Under the pieces are notes generated by a model. The model searched no databases. It worked only from the letters and a program-made list of their open reading frames with translations, and was not told where the DNA came from. A program made the position numbers and the translations under genes. A stretch of 58,739 bases of DNA from Nitrospirales bacterium (GTDB taxonomy: Bacteria; Nitrospirota; Nitrospiria; Nitrospirales; UBA8639): assembly GCA_021604365.1 (NCBI GenBank), contig BQIZ01000002.1, positions 1-58,739 on the forward strand. Reading direction: 5' to 3'. Of the stretch, positions 50,665 to 57,000 are shown one piece after another (the first letter of the stretch is position 1; each line of letters starts with the position of its first letter).

Positions 50665-51108
50665 ATGCGACGCGTTGATTACATTGTTGGAGCCAGGGAC
50701 TTTAAAGGTCTTATTGCCGAGCAATTTATGCAAGATGCCGTGTATGCCTATCATCCTGAAGATTCGGCAGAAGCCTTGGCGCAGACGATGACCGAGGAGG
50801 GTTTTGGGAGCGTGCCAATCGTTGACCACGACCAGCATTTGGTTGGGATTGTCAGTGAGTTCGATCTTCTCCATGCCATTAAAGAGGAGCGTTCTTTGTT
50901 AGGAGTTCCGGCGAGCGACTTGATGACTCCTGCGCCGATGACGGTGAAGCGGGAAACCCCGGCTATGGATATTATTGATCGGCTGGAAGGGAAGCATTTG
51001 ATTCGAATGCCGGTGGTTGATGAGGATGGAAAGCTTCTGGGAGTGGTGGCAAGGCGGGATATCCTTCTCGGATATTTGAATGCCACCAGGCAGACAAAAG
51101 TATTTTAG
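50665..51108 (+). CDS. CBS-domain pair protein
   Basis: A 147-residue protein made almost only of two CBS domains. The first (~18-75) has MQDAVYAYHPEDSAEALAQT and GFGSVPIVDHDQHLVGIVSE; the second (~85-140) has MTPAPMTVKRETPAMDIIDR and LIRMPVVDEDGKLLGVVARR. Such proteins sense adenine nucleotides or similar ligands and regulate a partner. An aggagg-type ribosome site (AAGGAGG) lies 8-9 bases before the ATG. No neighbour suggests a partner. It converges with the receiver gene at 51201. Confidence 0.88.
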   Translation: MRRVDYIVGARDFKGLIAEQFMQDAVYAYHPEDSAEALAQTMTEEGFGSVPIVDHDQHLVGIVSEFDLLHAIKEERSLLGVPASDLMTPAPMTVKRETPAMDIIDRLEGKHLIRMPVVDEDGKLLGVVARRDILLGYLNATRQTKVF

Positions 51109-51200
51109 GTGGTCTAATTCCATGCCGATGAGCATCATTTCGGCAGATTTCTGGATGATTGAGCTTGAACTAATCGCGGAGGGAGAGAGTCGAAATTTAA

Positions 51201-51611
51201 TTACCCCTTTAATGAATTAAAAAAAGCGACGAAGTCTGCCACGTGAGTGGGTTTGACTTGAAATCCGTTTGCTCCCAAGGCTATGGAACGCTCCGTGTCT
51301 TTGGGATTATCCGAGTTGGAGAACATCAACAGGATGGGCACGTGCGTGAACACTTGATGCTGTCGAATGGATGTCAGTACCTCAAATCCATTCATGATGG
51401 GCATGTTGAGATCCAACAAGACGAGTGCAGGTATCGGGGCCTCTTTATGTAACACGGAATCCATGTGTGAGAGGAAGGTTGGTCCGTCGAAAAATGTCAA
51501 AAATGGATTTTGTAATATAGATTTTTGATAACACCGTTTCGCAATGAGTTGGTCGGTTTCACTATCATCAACCATGATAATTGGATCATTTGTGGCAATC
51601 ATGGTGTCCAT
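51201..51611 (-). CDS. Single-domain response regulator (CheY-like), partner of the upstream kinase
   Basis: From ATG 51611 (GGAAGG upstream) the product is 136 residues, one receiver domain: IIMVDDSETD, phospho-Asp in LVLLDLNMPIMNG, Ser in MFSNSDNP and Lys in FQVKPTHV. All phosphorylation residues are present. There is no output domain. The start lies 4 bases after the stop of the sensor kinase gene, so the two form an operon and probably a pair. A longer frame back into the kinase gene is a shadow. Confidence 0.9.
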   Translation of the reverse strand: MDTMIATNDPIIMVDDSETDQLIAKRCYQKSILQNPFLTFFDGPTFLSHMDSVLHKEAPIPALVLLDLNMPIMNGFEVLTSIRQHQVFTHVPILLMFSNSDNPKDTERSIALGANGFQVKPTHVADFVAFFNSLKG

Positions 51612-51615
51612 CGGA

Positions 51616-53502
51616 TTAACCTTCCTTTCCAAAAGTAAAGCGGATGTGAACCACATTTTCTTTGATTTCCGTCCAGAGCGTTCCACGATGTCGTTCAATG
51701 ATTCGTTTGCAGATGGCCAAGTCGAGCCCTGATTCTGCGTGAGGCGATGTTGCTTGAGTAAGCGGTGCAAAGATGCTGGCTAAATTTTTCTGATCCATAG
51801 AGAGTCTGGTAACCATTATGCCCAATATCCATCCGTCTGTTGATCGCTCTGCGGTAAATGACACCATAATGTCATTGGAGCGGACATGTTTCAAGGTGTG
51901 ATCAAGTAGATTTTTATAAAAAACTTTCACCAGACTTTCATAGACATGCAAAGAGGGTGATGGCGAAAAAGTAATGACTGCTTCTTTGGCCTGGAATGCA
52001 TAGGTATATTCGTCCGTTAAGGATCGGATAAGATCTTCCATATTGACGTTTGTGCGAAGGATTTTTCCCTGGCTGAGATTGGTAAATACCCTGAAATCGG
52101 TAATCTGATCCAGAAGATTAACCGACGTGGATTGTAATTGGATGAGTAGATCCTGGCATGCGGGTGGTACCCCCTCCTTGCCTTCATGGCAGATTAAATC
52201 GGCTAGCATGATCATCCTTCTCGCCGGCTCACGAAGATTGTGGGATGCCAGATAAACAAAGTGCGCAAGATCTGTATTGGCTTTGAGAAGCTGCCGATTC
52301 ATGGAAGCAACTTGATTCTCTTTTTGGTTAATGGAGGCGACCATGTGATCAAAGGCTTGAGATAATATGCCGATTTCATTTTTCTCATGAGGCGGCCTGG
52401 AAGAGATGGCGAGTCCCTTCGCGAAGCGTTTGGTCGAGTCCGTCAGCCATTCTAGAGGTCTTGTCAAGCGTGTAGTGAGGGAAAATGTCAGGGCTAAACC
52501 GATGAGGATCAGAACCAAGGTTATGGCGAATACTTTAAGGAGAATAATGTTGGTGCCGGTTTGGATATCACCAAAAGAGGCCGTTACGCCAAACATCAGA
52601 AACCGTTTTGGGTCGTCAGGAAATATTCCGATTTTTCGAAAATGAATCAGGACAGGGTTGGAAAATGAAAGGTCTTTCCACTCTGTGACGAACTCTTGAC
52701 CGGAAGAAATAAACAAAGGAATGAGGTCGGGAAATTCCGCTTGGGCCGCATTGGGTTTTCCAAACTCGAAACCAAATGTCTTCGAAGATTCAGGGTGAAT
52801 GAGAAAATCTCCATCCGGATTCGTGAGAAAATAGGTGTAGCGCCCTGGTTGGATATGAAACAGGTCATCAATGAATGTTTTGAAATTCATGTTGATGATA
52901 ACAAGGCCAAATAACTGGTTTGTTGCCTGATAGATGGGTAAGGCCACACGGATGGTCGGTTTGTATGGTATTTCGATAGTGCCATGTTCACGATTTAAGT
53001 TTATTTTAGAAAAATATACATGGCCGGGATCGGAATGGAGGATTTCGGCAAAATAGTCACGAGTGCTTTTCTGTTGCAGGTCCGATTCTTTGACAATGAG
53101 AACCTCGCCTAGGTTTCTTTCCACACGGACAAGTTCCTTCCCCTGGTTGGCTGCTTCGATGAGGCGGATTTGGTCGTAATGGGGTTTGGTTTTTAAGAGT
53201 TCTTTGAATAATAGGCCGAGATTGGATTTTTCTTCTCTTTCAATGGAGAACTTTCCTGCATGATGGGCGTGGATGATTTTCGAGATTGCGGGAATTTCGG
53301 CTATAAATTGGATGTCGTGCTGTATTTCGGAAAAGGCCGTTTTCAGTCGTTCTGTTTCAAGGGCGACGAAGCTTTCCAGGCTTTCGCGTTGTTGGTTCAT
53401 AATCAAGGCATGAAAGCCCCAATAGACGACGATGCCAATAAGGAGAGCGGTGCTGAGAAGCAACCCAAGCGATAGAAGACGAATCTGTAAGCCGATTTTC
53501 AT
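51616..53502 (-). CDS. Membrane sensor histidine kinase with degenerate ATP-binding domain
   Basis: A 628-residue protein: TM helix (~8-30), periplasmic double-Cache-like sensor (~40-310), TM helix (~325-347), HAMP (~348-400), coiled coil, HisKA with YLASHNLREP (phospho-His ~421), and an HATPase-like region (~490-620). In the latter, the second, Mg-binding Asn of the N box is replaced (NLLDHTLKH), the DxGxG (G1) box is missing (VTRLSMDQ), and the G2 box is SGLDLAI instead of the usual TGxGLAI. ATP binding is therefore unlikely. It may be a non-catalytic sensor that binds a partner kinase. The receiver gene follows after 4 bases. Confidence 0.85.
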   Translation of the reverse strand: MKIGLQIRLLSLGLLLSTALLIGIVVYWGFHALIMNQQRESLESFVALETERLKTAFSEIQHDIQFIAEIPAISKIIHAHHAGKFSIEREEKSNLGLLFKELLKTKPHYDQIRLIEAANQGKELVRVERNLGEVLIVKESDLQQKSTRDYFAEILHSDPGHVYFSKINLNREHGTIEIPYKPTIRVALPIYQATNQLFGLVIINMNFKTFIDDLFHIQPGRYTYFLTNPDGDFLIHPESSKTFGFEFGKPNAAQAEFPDLIPLFISSGQEFVTEWKDLSFSNPVLIHFRKIGIFPDDPKRFLMFGVTASFGDIQTGTNIILLKVFAITLVLILIGLALTFSLTTRLTRPLEWLTDSTKRFAKGLAISSRPPHEKNEIGILSQAFDHMVASINQKENQVASMNRQLLKANTDLAHFVYLASHNLREPARRMIMLADLICHEGKEGVPPACQDLLIQLQSTSVNLLDQITDFRVFTNLSQGKILRTNVNMEDLIRSLTDEYTYAFQAKEAVITFSPSPSLHVYESLVKVFYKNLLDHTLKHVRSNDIMVSFTAERSTDGWILGIMVTRLSMDQKNLASIFAPLTQATSPHAESGLDLAICKRIIERHRGTLWTEIKENVVHIRFTFGKEG

Positions 53503-54010
53503 AACTCATCATTCATAAATGGTGATCCGTGAGCAATCTTTTGCAGGACATTTTTGCGGGTATTGAGCAGTGTCGATGGCCGGTACCGGGATTGTCATGT
53601 GGATTTCTGTAAGAAAGCAATAAGGTATGAGAGCCGAATGCGGGGAGCGGTATTTCTTAACTATTCCTTTGGAATAGTTCGAAGAAGCAGTGTTGAGATG
53701 AAGGCTCCCATTCATAATCTCGTCCATCGCTGTTAACGAGTTTGGGTGGGAAAGCACATGCGTCAATTCAAAAAAAACGATTTTCAATCCTTTCCACGGA
53801 AGGGAGGGATTTGTAAATCGACTGGATCGGAAAACAATAGGAATATTCGGCTTAAGATATGATAAATGTCTTGGACCGTTTCCATTTCATTGCTCTCTTC
53901 CTCTAATGATTAAAAATCATTCCTTTCTTAATGAGTAAAAAAATCAGAATGATTTCGCCTCGTACAAGGCAATTTCCGAAGGGTCCCATCATCAATCTTT
54001 CAGACACAGT
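53503..54010. other. Intergenic region between two sensor-gene groups
   Basis: About 500 bases with no convincing gene. AATGATT-AAA-AATCATT at 53904-53920 is a small inverted repeat in an AT-rich stretch, possibly a terminator for the gene on the right or an operator for the kinase on the left. Promoters for the 51616-53502 kinase should lie here. Confidence 0.4.
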
Positions 54011-57000
54011 TTAGGATTTCTTTGATTTGTTGAGAGACAACACCCTGGCTAGCGTCTGACTGAGTTGGTTCACGAGAATTGGTTTGTCGAGGAATGCGCT
54101 TATTCCTTGCTTCAGAGCCGTTTCCTTGTCAATAGCATGGCTGAAACCGGTACAGAGAATGATGGGTGTATCGGGGCGTATTTTAAGAATTTCTCGAGCA
54201 AACTGATCTCCACTGAGGCCGGGCATGGTTTGATCGGTGATGAGACAGTCGAATTGTTGAGGGTTTTTTCGAAACACTTCCAGTGCTTCCAATGGACTCA
54301 CCTGAACAGTAACCGTATAGCCCATATGCGTAAGGAATTCTTTCAAAACTTGGGTGATGGATACTTCGTCATCTACGAATAAGACATGTCCGTTTCCTGC
54401 ACAGCTGGGAGTAAGCTCTAAATCACGGACTGAATTTGTGGAGGTTTGATACTCTGGAATCGCAATGGAAAATATGGTTCCGGACCCTTGGGACGATTTG
54501 ACGGAAATGTGGCCTTTTAGATTTTTTACGATGCCATGCACCACCGACAATCCCATTCCGGTTCCTTCTCCGACGGGTTTTGTGGTAAAGAACGGGTCGA
54601 AAATGTTGGGGAGAATTTGCTCAGGAATCCCCGGCCCTGAATCGCAAATGAGCAATTGCACATACTTTCCGGGGTCCAGGGTGGGCGGAAACCGAGAATT
54701 GCCCGATTCAAGGTATGTGGTGGTCAGATCAATCGTAAGGATTCCACCGTTAGGGCGAAGGGCATGTTCCGAATTTGAGCAAAGATTGATAATAATACGT
54801 TGAATTTGAACGGGATCGGCAAAGACCATGTTCATGGGTTGATGAGAGGCAAAATGCAGTTCAATATTGGAGGGAAAGGTTGCCCGGAGAAGGACCAGGG
54901 ATTCCTCGATAACCGGACCGAGATCGACCGGGCGAGGATGGTGTTCCGTTTGACGGCTGAAGGTCAGAATTTGTTGAATTAACTCACGCCCTCGTTTGCC
55001 CGCAATGCCGATTTGCTCAAAATATTTGTACGCCGAATCCTCTGGCTCAAATTTCAACGTACCCATTTCTGCCCATCCGAGAATAGCCATCAGGATATTA
55101 TTGAAGTCGTGAGCAATGCCTCCTGCCAGGGTTCCCATGGATTCCATTTTTTGTGTCTGTCTCACATGCTGTTCCAGGCGTTTTTGTTCGGTGAGATCCC
55201 TCCAGATGGCCGTCACGCCTGAAATCGTTCCGTCCGACTCTACATAGGGATTCAGTCTGACCTCCATGAAGCGAACGTTTTTTTCAGGAAAGGTCAAATG
55301 CTGTTGAAAGCAGACGACCCGTCCTTTTCGACAGTCATCTAAATGACTGTGTACCTGGGATTCAAAGAGATCCGTTCCCACAAAATCCCGAATGTGACGG
55401 CCGGTAATTTCCCGGGCAGGAAGATTGAAATATTTACAAAATCCATGATTAACGGCTTGCAGGCAATTCTTCTCATCTAAAAAGCAGAGAAAGTCCGAGC
55501 TGGTTGACACAATTTGTTCATACCGACGGAGCGCTTTGGTCGCCTGATGCCGCTGGGTGATATCCCGGCCGACGGCATAGATGGCTTTTTCCTGAAGCTG
55601 GGGAGTGGCACGCCATTCCAGCCAGAGGTATTTGCCACGGATATCACGGATGCGGTTCTGGAAGTCCACCACATCTTTTTCTTCAGCAAGTTGATGGAAA
55701 ACTGCCTGGGTGGATATCCGATCATCTGGATGGGTGAAAAAGATCAATGGTTGGGATAACAGTTCTTCTTGGGTGTACCCAAGAAGTTTTTCGAAGGCAG
55801 GATTGGTTTTTTTGAGATACCCGTCAATGCCGATGATACACATGAGATCCAGAGAGAGGGAAAAAATGTGATCCCGTTGGATTTCTGCTTTGAATTGGGC
55901 TGTGACATCGATCGAAACACCGCCCAGTATCGGTGGACGGTCATGTTGCCAAATAGGAAATTTGCAGGATAAATACTGATGGAGGCCGTCTTTGAGTGGA
56001 ATGTCTTCGAGAATTTCGAGGGATTGACCGTGTGAGAGCACCCAGTCATCATCGTATTGGAGCCTTGCCGCCGTATCGGGAGGTAGGACGTCGTGAACAG
56101 TTTTGCCTATCCAGTTTTTGAGATGAATATTGAACACCTGCTCAAATTCCAGATTCAAATATCTGAAACGATACTGTTCGTCTTTCATGTAGGCCAAACC
56201 CGGAAGATGGGCCATGAACTGTGCAAAGCGTTTTTCGCTGGCCTGAAGGGCTTCTAACATCGTGGTGCGGTCGGTAATATCTTCAGCCAGCCGGGTGATC
56301 CGATACGGATGCCCCCCTGGAGAGTGATTGATGAGTCCGCGTTCATGAATCCAGCGAGTCGACCCGTCTGCTTTAAGGATTCGATAAATCTCGTTATATC
56401 CTCCGGTGATATTCAACTGCAGATAGGCGTTTTTGATACGGTCCCGGTCCTTGGGATGAAGGGCTTCAAGCCAATCCAACGGGTTTCGAGCGAGCTGATG
56501 AGCCGGGCGGTCCCAAATTTTTTCATAGGTCGGGCTGACATACAATAATTTTTTTGGTTCCTGAAAGTCGGTCAGCCAAAAAATCCCCTGATAGTGCTCC
56601 ATGAATTGGTGAAACCGATCATGGGCTTCTTTGAGTGATAATTCCAGTAACTCATTTCTGATTTTCAAGCGATGATGCCGGATGACTTCAGCCACTAGCG
56701 CCGGCAATAAATCCAGATAGCCGCTTTGGGAGGCTTTGACCAAATAGTCATTCACTCCGGCTTTGAAGGCTTCAATGGCAACCTGTTCGGACCCATTGCC
56801 TGTTAAGAGAATAAACGGAGATAGGCATTTCATCTGACGCAGGGTGCGAAACAAAGCGAGGCCATCCATGCCCGGGAGCTTGAAGTCGGCAATGATGACG
56901 TCAAATTCCGAAGGAGATTGTTCCAGATGGCGAATGGCTTCCTCCGCACTTTCACATTCCAGAAGGGTGTGAAGGTCCTTCTTAAGGGAACGGCGGATCG

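Follow-up and report, generated by a model that had tools for sequence, protein, structure and literature searches.

A histidine kinase-like sensor with a degenerate ATP site and its adjoining receiver, encoded on a lineage-specific insert in a Nitrospirales bacterium

The stretch of 58,739 nucleotides from a Nitrospirales bacterium that we analysed, here called the window, carries on the minus strand at 51616-53502 an open reading frame of 628 codons, free of internal stops, for a sensor protein with a degenerate CA domain. The domain order TM-dCache-TM-HAMP-DHp-CA is intact. Hydropathy places two transmembrane helices at about residues 7-30 (53413-53484, minus strand like all features of this protein) and 318-341 (52480-52551), and between them, at about residues 34-301 (52600-53403), lies a periplasmic sensor of the double-Cache type, recognised by Pfam as HK_sensor_dom_bact (PF21623, 67.7 bits) and resembling the solved sensors PDB 3lid/2p7j (E 1.4e-10); the dCache_1 match, at 37.2 bits, falls under its cut-off of 45. 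A HAMP domain follows at residues 343-392 (52327-52476; 28.5 bits, cut-off 25). The original prediction, made from the letters alone, had described the sensor domain, HAMP and phospho-accepting histidine as intact, which the Pfam matches and the retained His421 bear out, and had proposed a domain search of the C-terminal part, where we found HATPase_c at 35.3 bits (cut-off 26.4) and HisKA unmatched. No promoter or terminator match was found upstream of the gene.

Downstream on the same strand (51201-51611) lies the gene for a single-domain receiver of 136 aa, Rcp1/DrRR-like, whose start at 51611 is 4 nt past the stop of the sensor gene. The phosphorylation-site residues D15, D16, D67 and K120 are kept, together with a Ser at position 98 that aligns with the conserved Thr/Ser, so that the intact receiver gene predicted four bases away is indeed there. 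Its best match in the PDB is DrRR (6xvu, E 5.1e-16). The arrangement of a kinase gene followed directly by a receiver gene is also seen in canonical relatives.

The transmitter departs from an active HisKA-type kinase at both the H box and the ATP site. The H box SHNLREPAR (residues 420-428, 52219-52245) keeps His421, Glu425 at H+4 and Arg428 at H+7, and has Asn422 at H+1, where all 52 relatives have Asp. The acid that follows the phospho-accepting histidine is the general base and is required for autokinase activity. The N box NLLDHTLKH (residues 531-539, 51886-51912) retains its first Asn, Asn531, as well as Lys538, and has His535 in place of the second Asn. At the position of the DxGxG box (residues 564-569, 51796-51813) we read VTRLSM instead of DNGIGx, the G2 box (residues 590-597, 51712-51735) is ESGLDLAI instead of GTGIGLAI, and the last Gly-rich box, GxGSxF, is lost, with ENVVHIRF in its place (residues 615-622, 51637-51660). 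The N-, D- and G2-box stretches are all in frame with the open reading frame, and the alignment across the D box with canonical relatives of the SHDLQEPLR group is gapless (WILGIMVTRLSM versus WIFSVQDNGIGV; DNGIGV replaced by VTRLSM). This agrees with the box readings of the original prediction (NLLDHTLKH, VTRLSMDQ without DxGxG, and SGLDLAI), which had, however, missed the loss of the H+1 acid; this loss weighs as much as those of the boxes and, with the general base gone too, ATP use appears to have been lost more completely than had been stated.

Counting the ATP site and H+1 together, eight positions are invariant in the 52 relatives, and seven of these are changed (D422N, N535H, D564V, G566R, G568S, G590E and G594D), leaving G592 as the only one retained. 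Among the other invariant positions five of six are kept, including His421, a post hoc contrast for which our own count gives a Fisher p of about 0.03; when all positions conserved at 80% or more are taken, 3 of 10 catalytic and 21 of 40 other positions are kept, and the difference is not significant (p = 0.29). The residue states strongly support the loss of ATP use, and the protein would be expected neither to bind ATP nor to autophosphorylate. We consider it very improbable that autophosphorylation still occurs through an unusual ATP site: the retained His421, Asn531 and Lys538 speak for it, but the H+1 acid, the Mg-ligand Asn, the D-box Asp and four glycines are all gone.

A sequence error restoring the boxes was also considered and rejected. 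The other two frames carry stops and contain neither DxGxG nor GxGxG, so no simple frameshift brings the boxes back, and errors in seven separate codons would be required. Nor is degeneracy a general trait of this genome. HATPase_c has 64 matches; all boxes align in 56 domains, of which 37 follow the canon at each of the eight positions. The domain described here misses six of the eight and is the most degenerate, the next worst missing three, and these are mostly of the HisKA_3 type, which has its own canon. No box is lost in the kinases at 54011 and 57501, as had been predicted.

Four further loci of the genome with unusual HATPase_c regions came up in this survey. A kinase-like gene (L094, 440-2320, plus strand; contig C14 near 22460) has a partly degenerate ATP site, with N box CIFKNAIE, D box NDGVPI and an intact G2 box, and a HATPase_c domain (L111, 545-1456, plus strand; contig C136 near 10108) has intact N and D boxes and has lost G2 (DLLPNLHA). 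A kinase (L052, 1-1869, plus strand; contig C204 near 4982) is canonical except for the D-box Asp, which is Ser (SEGEGI), and a kinase-like HATPase_c match on contig C87 near 14477 (L099, 981-1631, minus strand) contains one in-frame TAA, so that this gene is possibly broken.

Searches of the genus (21 genomes), the family (49), the order (236) and the phylum (396) gave no full-length orthologue of the sensor protein, only relatives of the sensor or of the transmitter, and two scans of genome contigs with peptide patterns, which are insensitive, gave none either. The pattern HNLxEPxR matched, in the 396 phylum genomes, the gene itself and five places that translate to unrelated frames. Relatives of the sensor, at 27-35% identity, sit in kinases, and those whose HATPase region was aligned are canonical. 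The terminal branch of the transmitter is long for both DHp (1.75, median 0.28) and CA (1.95, median 0.31), and DHp positions beyond the catalytic ones have also changed, for example Leu471.

These long branches would suit a gene in early decay, that is, an insert that is losing function with the boxes of the CA domain as the first to go; the codon signal is weak in residues 541-600, where periodicity is noisy, and no orthologue under selection is available for comparison. Against this, 628 codons have stayed open at great divergence, including the last 108, in which 44 single changes to a stop are possible, the receiver is intact, the HATPase_c score lies above its cut-off and the CA fold is confidently predicted, which makes decay in our opinion quite unlikely. 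The structure prediction, another step that had been proposed from the sequence, gave an AF2 model with a mean pLDDT of 85.7, the CA blocks being mostly at 86-97 and only residues 584-590 of the ATP lid below 50. The input alignment had 33 rows, made up of the window's own sequences and kinases from viral contigs, and the other kinases in it, drawn largely from those contigs, keep their boxes almost completely. By VIA-align the model is close to ZraS (Z 19.1), GacS (18.8), RetS (17.1) and DivL (16.9), and fold matches in the PDB include RetS, the RetS-GacS complex, DivL and phytochrome transmitters. The transmitter also matches DrBphP, the partner of DrRR. The ATP-site chemistry is gone, and the predicted CA fold is kept.

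Both genes lie on a segment of about 2.9 kb (51112-54035) that is missing from the sister genomes and that, of all genomes searched, only this one carries. The flanking genes, for a hybrid kinase and a CBS protein, are side by side in five sister genomes, tens of bases apart, and we thus regard the pair as a lineage-specific insert. Gene order in the sister genomes runs from a kinase through a receiver and the hybrid kinase to the CBS gene and its further neighbours, and apart from the pair it is the same as in the window. In these five, homology to the window ends at 51108-51111 and restarts at 54036-54051. In a sixth sister genome, G018, the insert site falls within a stretch of N, which makes its state less sure. 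Orthologues of the hybrid kinase are 77-85% identical, and their tree places the host genome between G018 and the other four, which favours a gain in the host lineage, although a single loss is also compatible; the two genes would have entered this lineage together as a single insert, or have survived as such in it alone. DNA relatives of the insert elsewhere in the genus amount to two short matches, 30 and 57 bases long, no repeat of at least 9 nt is common to its two ends, its tetranucleotide composition is ordinary and its GC content is 0.44, the window averaging 0.47. The final dozen codons of the hybrid kinase gene (54011-54050, minus strand) lie beyond the end of the homology to the sister genomes, as if the insert had replaced its 3' end.

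The history of the locus bears on possible partners. The kinases at 54011 and 57501, with which the original prediction had proposed to test phosphotransfer, are conserved side by side in several sister genomes that do not have the pair, and this weakens the idea that they are natural partners. The proposed loss of ATP use stands and, of the three roles then considered, that of a phosphatase is now the best supported, given Glu425, Arg428 and the presence of DrBphP and DrRR among the closest solved relatives. The history of the locus is also relevant to the rather unlikely reading that His421 takes phosphate from the receiver of another protein and hands it on to the one at 51201, in the manner of ChpT or Spo0B and gated by the membrane sensor. 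The retained His421 fits such a phosphotransferase, as does the precedent of ChpT, in which the fold remains kinase-like and the ATP pocket binds no ATP (PMC3433190). A gene for a hybrid kinase that ends in a receiver domain lies 508 nt upstream, and Hpt domains are matched only three times in the genome, always within open frames of at least 451 aa. The Glu/Arg pattern that is retained is, however, that of a phosphatase. We give less weight to a relay involving the hybrid kinase at 54011, since that gene is conserved beside its other neighbours where the pair is missing, and a shared history that would support a relay is not seen.

Our preferred reading, to which we give about an even chance, is that the protein, kinase-dead itself, acts under the control of its sensor as a phosphatase on the adjoining receiver, similar to RetS and to DrBphP/DrRR. 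The periplasmic dCache domain would bind a ligand and act through HAMP on the DHp helices, which would still dock the receiver encoded 4 nt downstream; Glu425 and Arg428, beside His421, would then help to remove phosphate from this receiver, or from single-domain receivers related to it, whenever the sensor adopts the appropriate state, the phosphate having been supplied by another kinase or by a small-molecule donor. Glu425 belongs to the T/N/Q/E class of phosphatase residues at H+4, and it is the retention of the DrBphP-type H+4 and H+7 residues, together with DrRR as the best solved relative of the receiver, that makes this the best reading. As Glu at H+4 and Arg at H+7 also occur in active relatives, their retention reflects inheritance and is not specific proof. 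This is one of two main doubts, the other being that the phosphatase activity of DrBphP needed ATP (PMC8292422), which the protein described here should not bind. The fast evolution of the DHp domain and the lack of a significant concentration of losses in the catalytic positions, when all those conserved at 80% or more are taken, also count against this reading.

An unlikely alternative to catalysis is that the protein forms a heterodimer with an active kinase, or senses whether the receiver is phosphorylated, in the manner of RetS, DivL and, as proposed, FasC. These precedents and the likeness in fold to RetS, the RetS-GacS complex and DivL are in line with a docking pseudokinase of this kind, whereas a co-conserved partner kinase was not found. 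More broadly, and with considerable doubt, we suggest that the membrane-sensor pseudokinase and its receiver could form a self-contained cassette, acquired as a unit, which would couple a signal from the environment to the phosphate traffic among resident kinases, serving as a ligand-gated phosphotransferase or draining phosphate, with no kinase of its own. Two-component genes are routinely annotated as kinase and regulator by gene order alone; here, with the general base and the ATP site both gone, phosphate probably flows in the direction opposite to the one annotated.

Kinase-dead sensor kinases are already known, so the novelty lies not in the kind but in the combination of features and in the insert. 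RetS of Pseudomonas aeruginosa is likewise a sensor kinase with a degenerate HATPase, without G boxes, that keeps its phospho-His box; it cannot autophosphorylate and its transmitter is a phosphatase (PMC5992135), and GacS is inhibited by contact with it. RetS, unlike our protein, has fused receivers, an HExxT motif with Thr at H+4 and a hybrid kinase, GacS, as target, whereas here we find HNxxE with Glu at H+4, as in DrBphP, a dCache sensor, no receiver domain and a separate receiver gene. The sensor of RetS is of another type than that of the protein described here. ChpT and Spo0B share the use of a dimeric DHp as phosphotransferase and, in ChpT, a CA-like domain without ATP use, but they act in relays and consist of DHp and CA-like domains only, with no membrane sensor, whereas our protein has two transmembrane helices, a dCache-type sensor and HAMP. 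FasC and DivL are also kinase-like, with known or proposed signalling roles that do not depend on autokinase activity: FasC is a proposed pseudokinase that heterodimerises and works with FasB, and DivL, a docking sensor, is the reverse case, having kept its ATP boxes and lost its His. In DrBphP of Deinococcus radiodurans the H+1 acid is missing, as is one Asn of the N box; it shows no kinase activity and dephosphorylates DrRR by means of Glu at H+4, assisted by Arg at H+7 (PMC8292422). DrBphP thus shares with our protein a HisKA-family transmitter with the same H-box features, and DrRR is a single-domain receiver; it differs in being a soluble light sensor that keeps its D and G boxes, and the N-box Asn lost is the first in DrBphP and the second here. 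With its degenerate HATPase, retained CA fold and Glu425, the protein would fall into the RetS-like/DrBphP-like class of kinase-dead transmitter phosphatases, and it is an orthologue of neither. It joins DrBphP-like H-box features to a RetS-like dead CA domain, and would make it testable whether a transmitter unable to bind ATP can be a signal-controlled phosphatase of a stand-alone receiver, a task for which DrBphP needs ATP.
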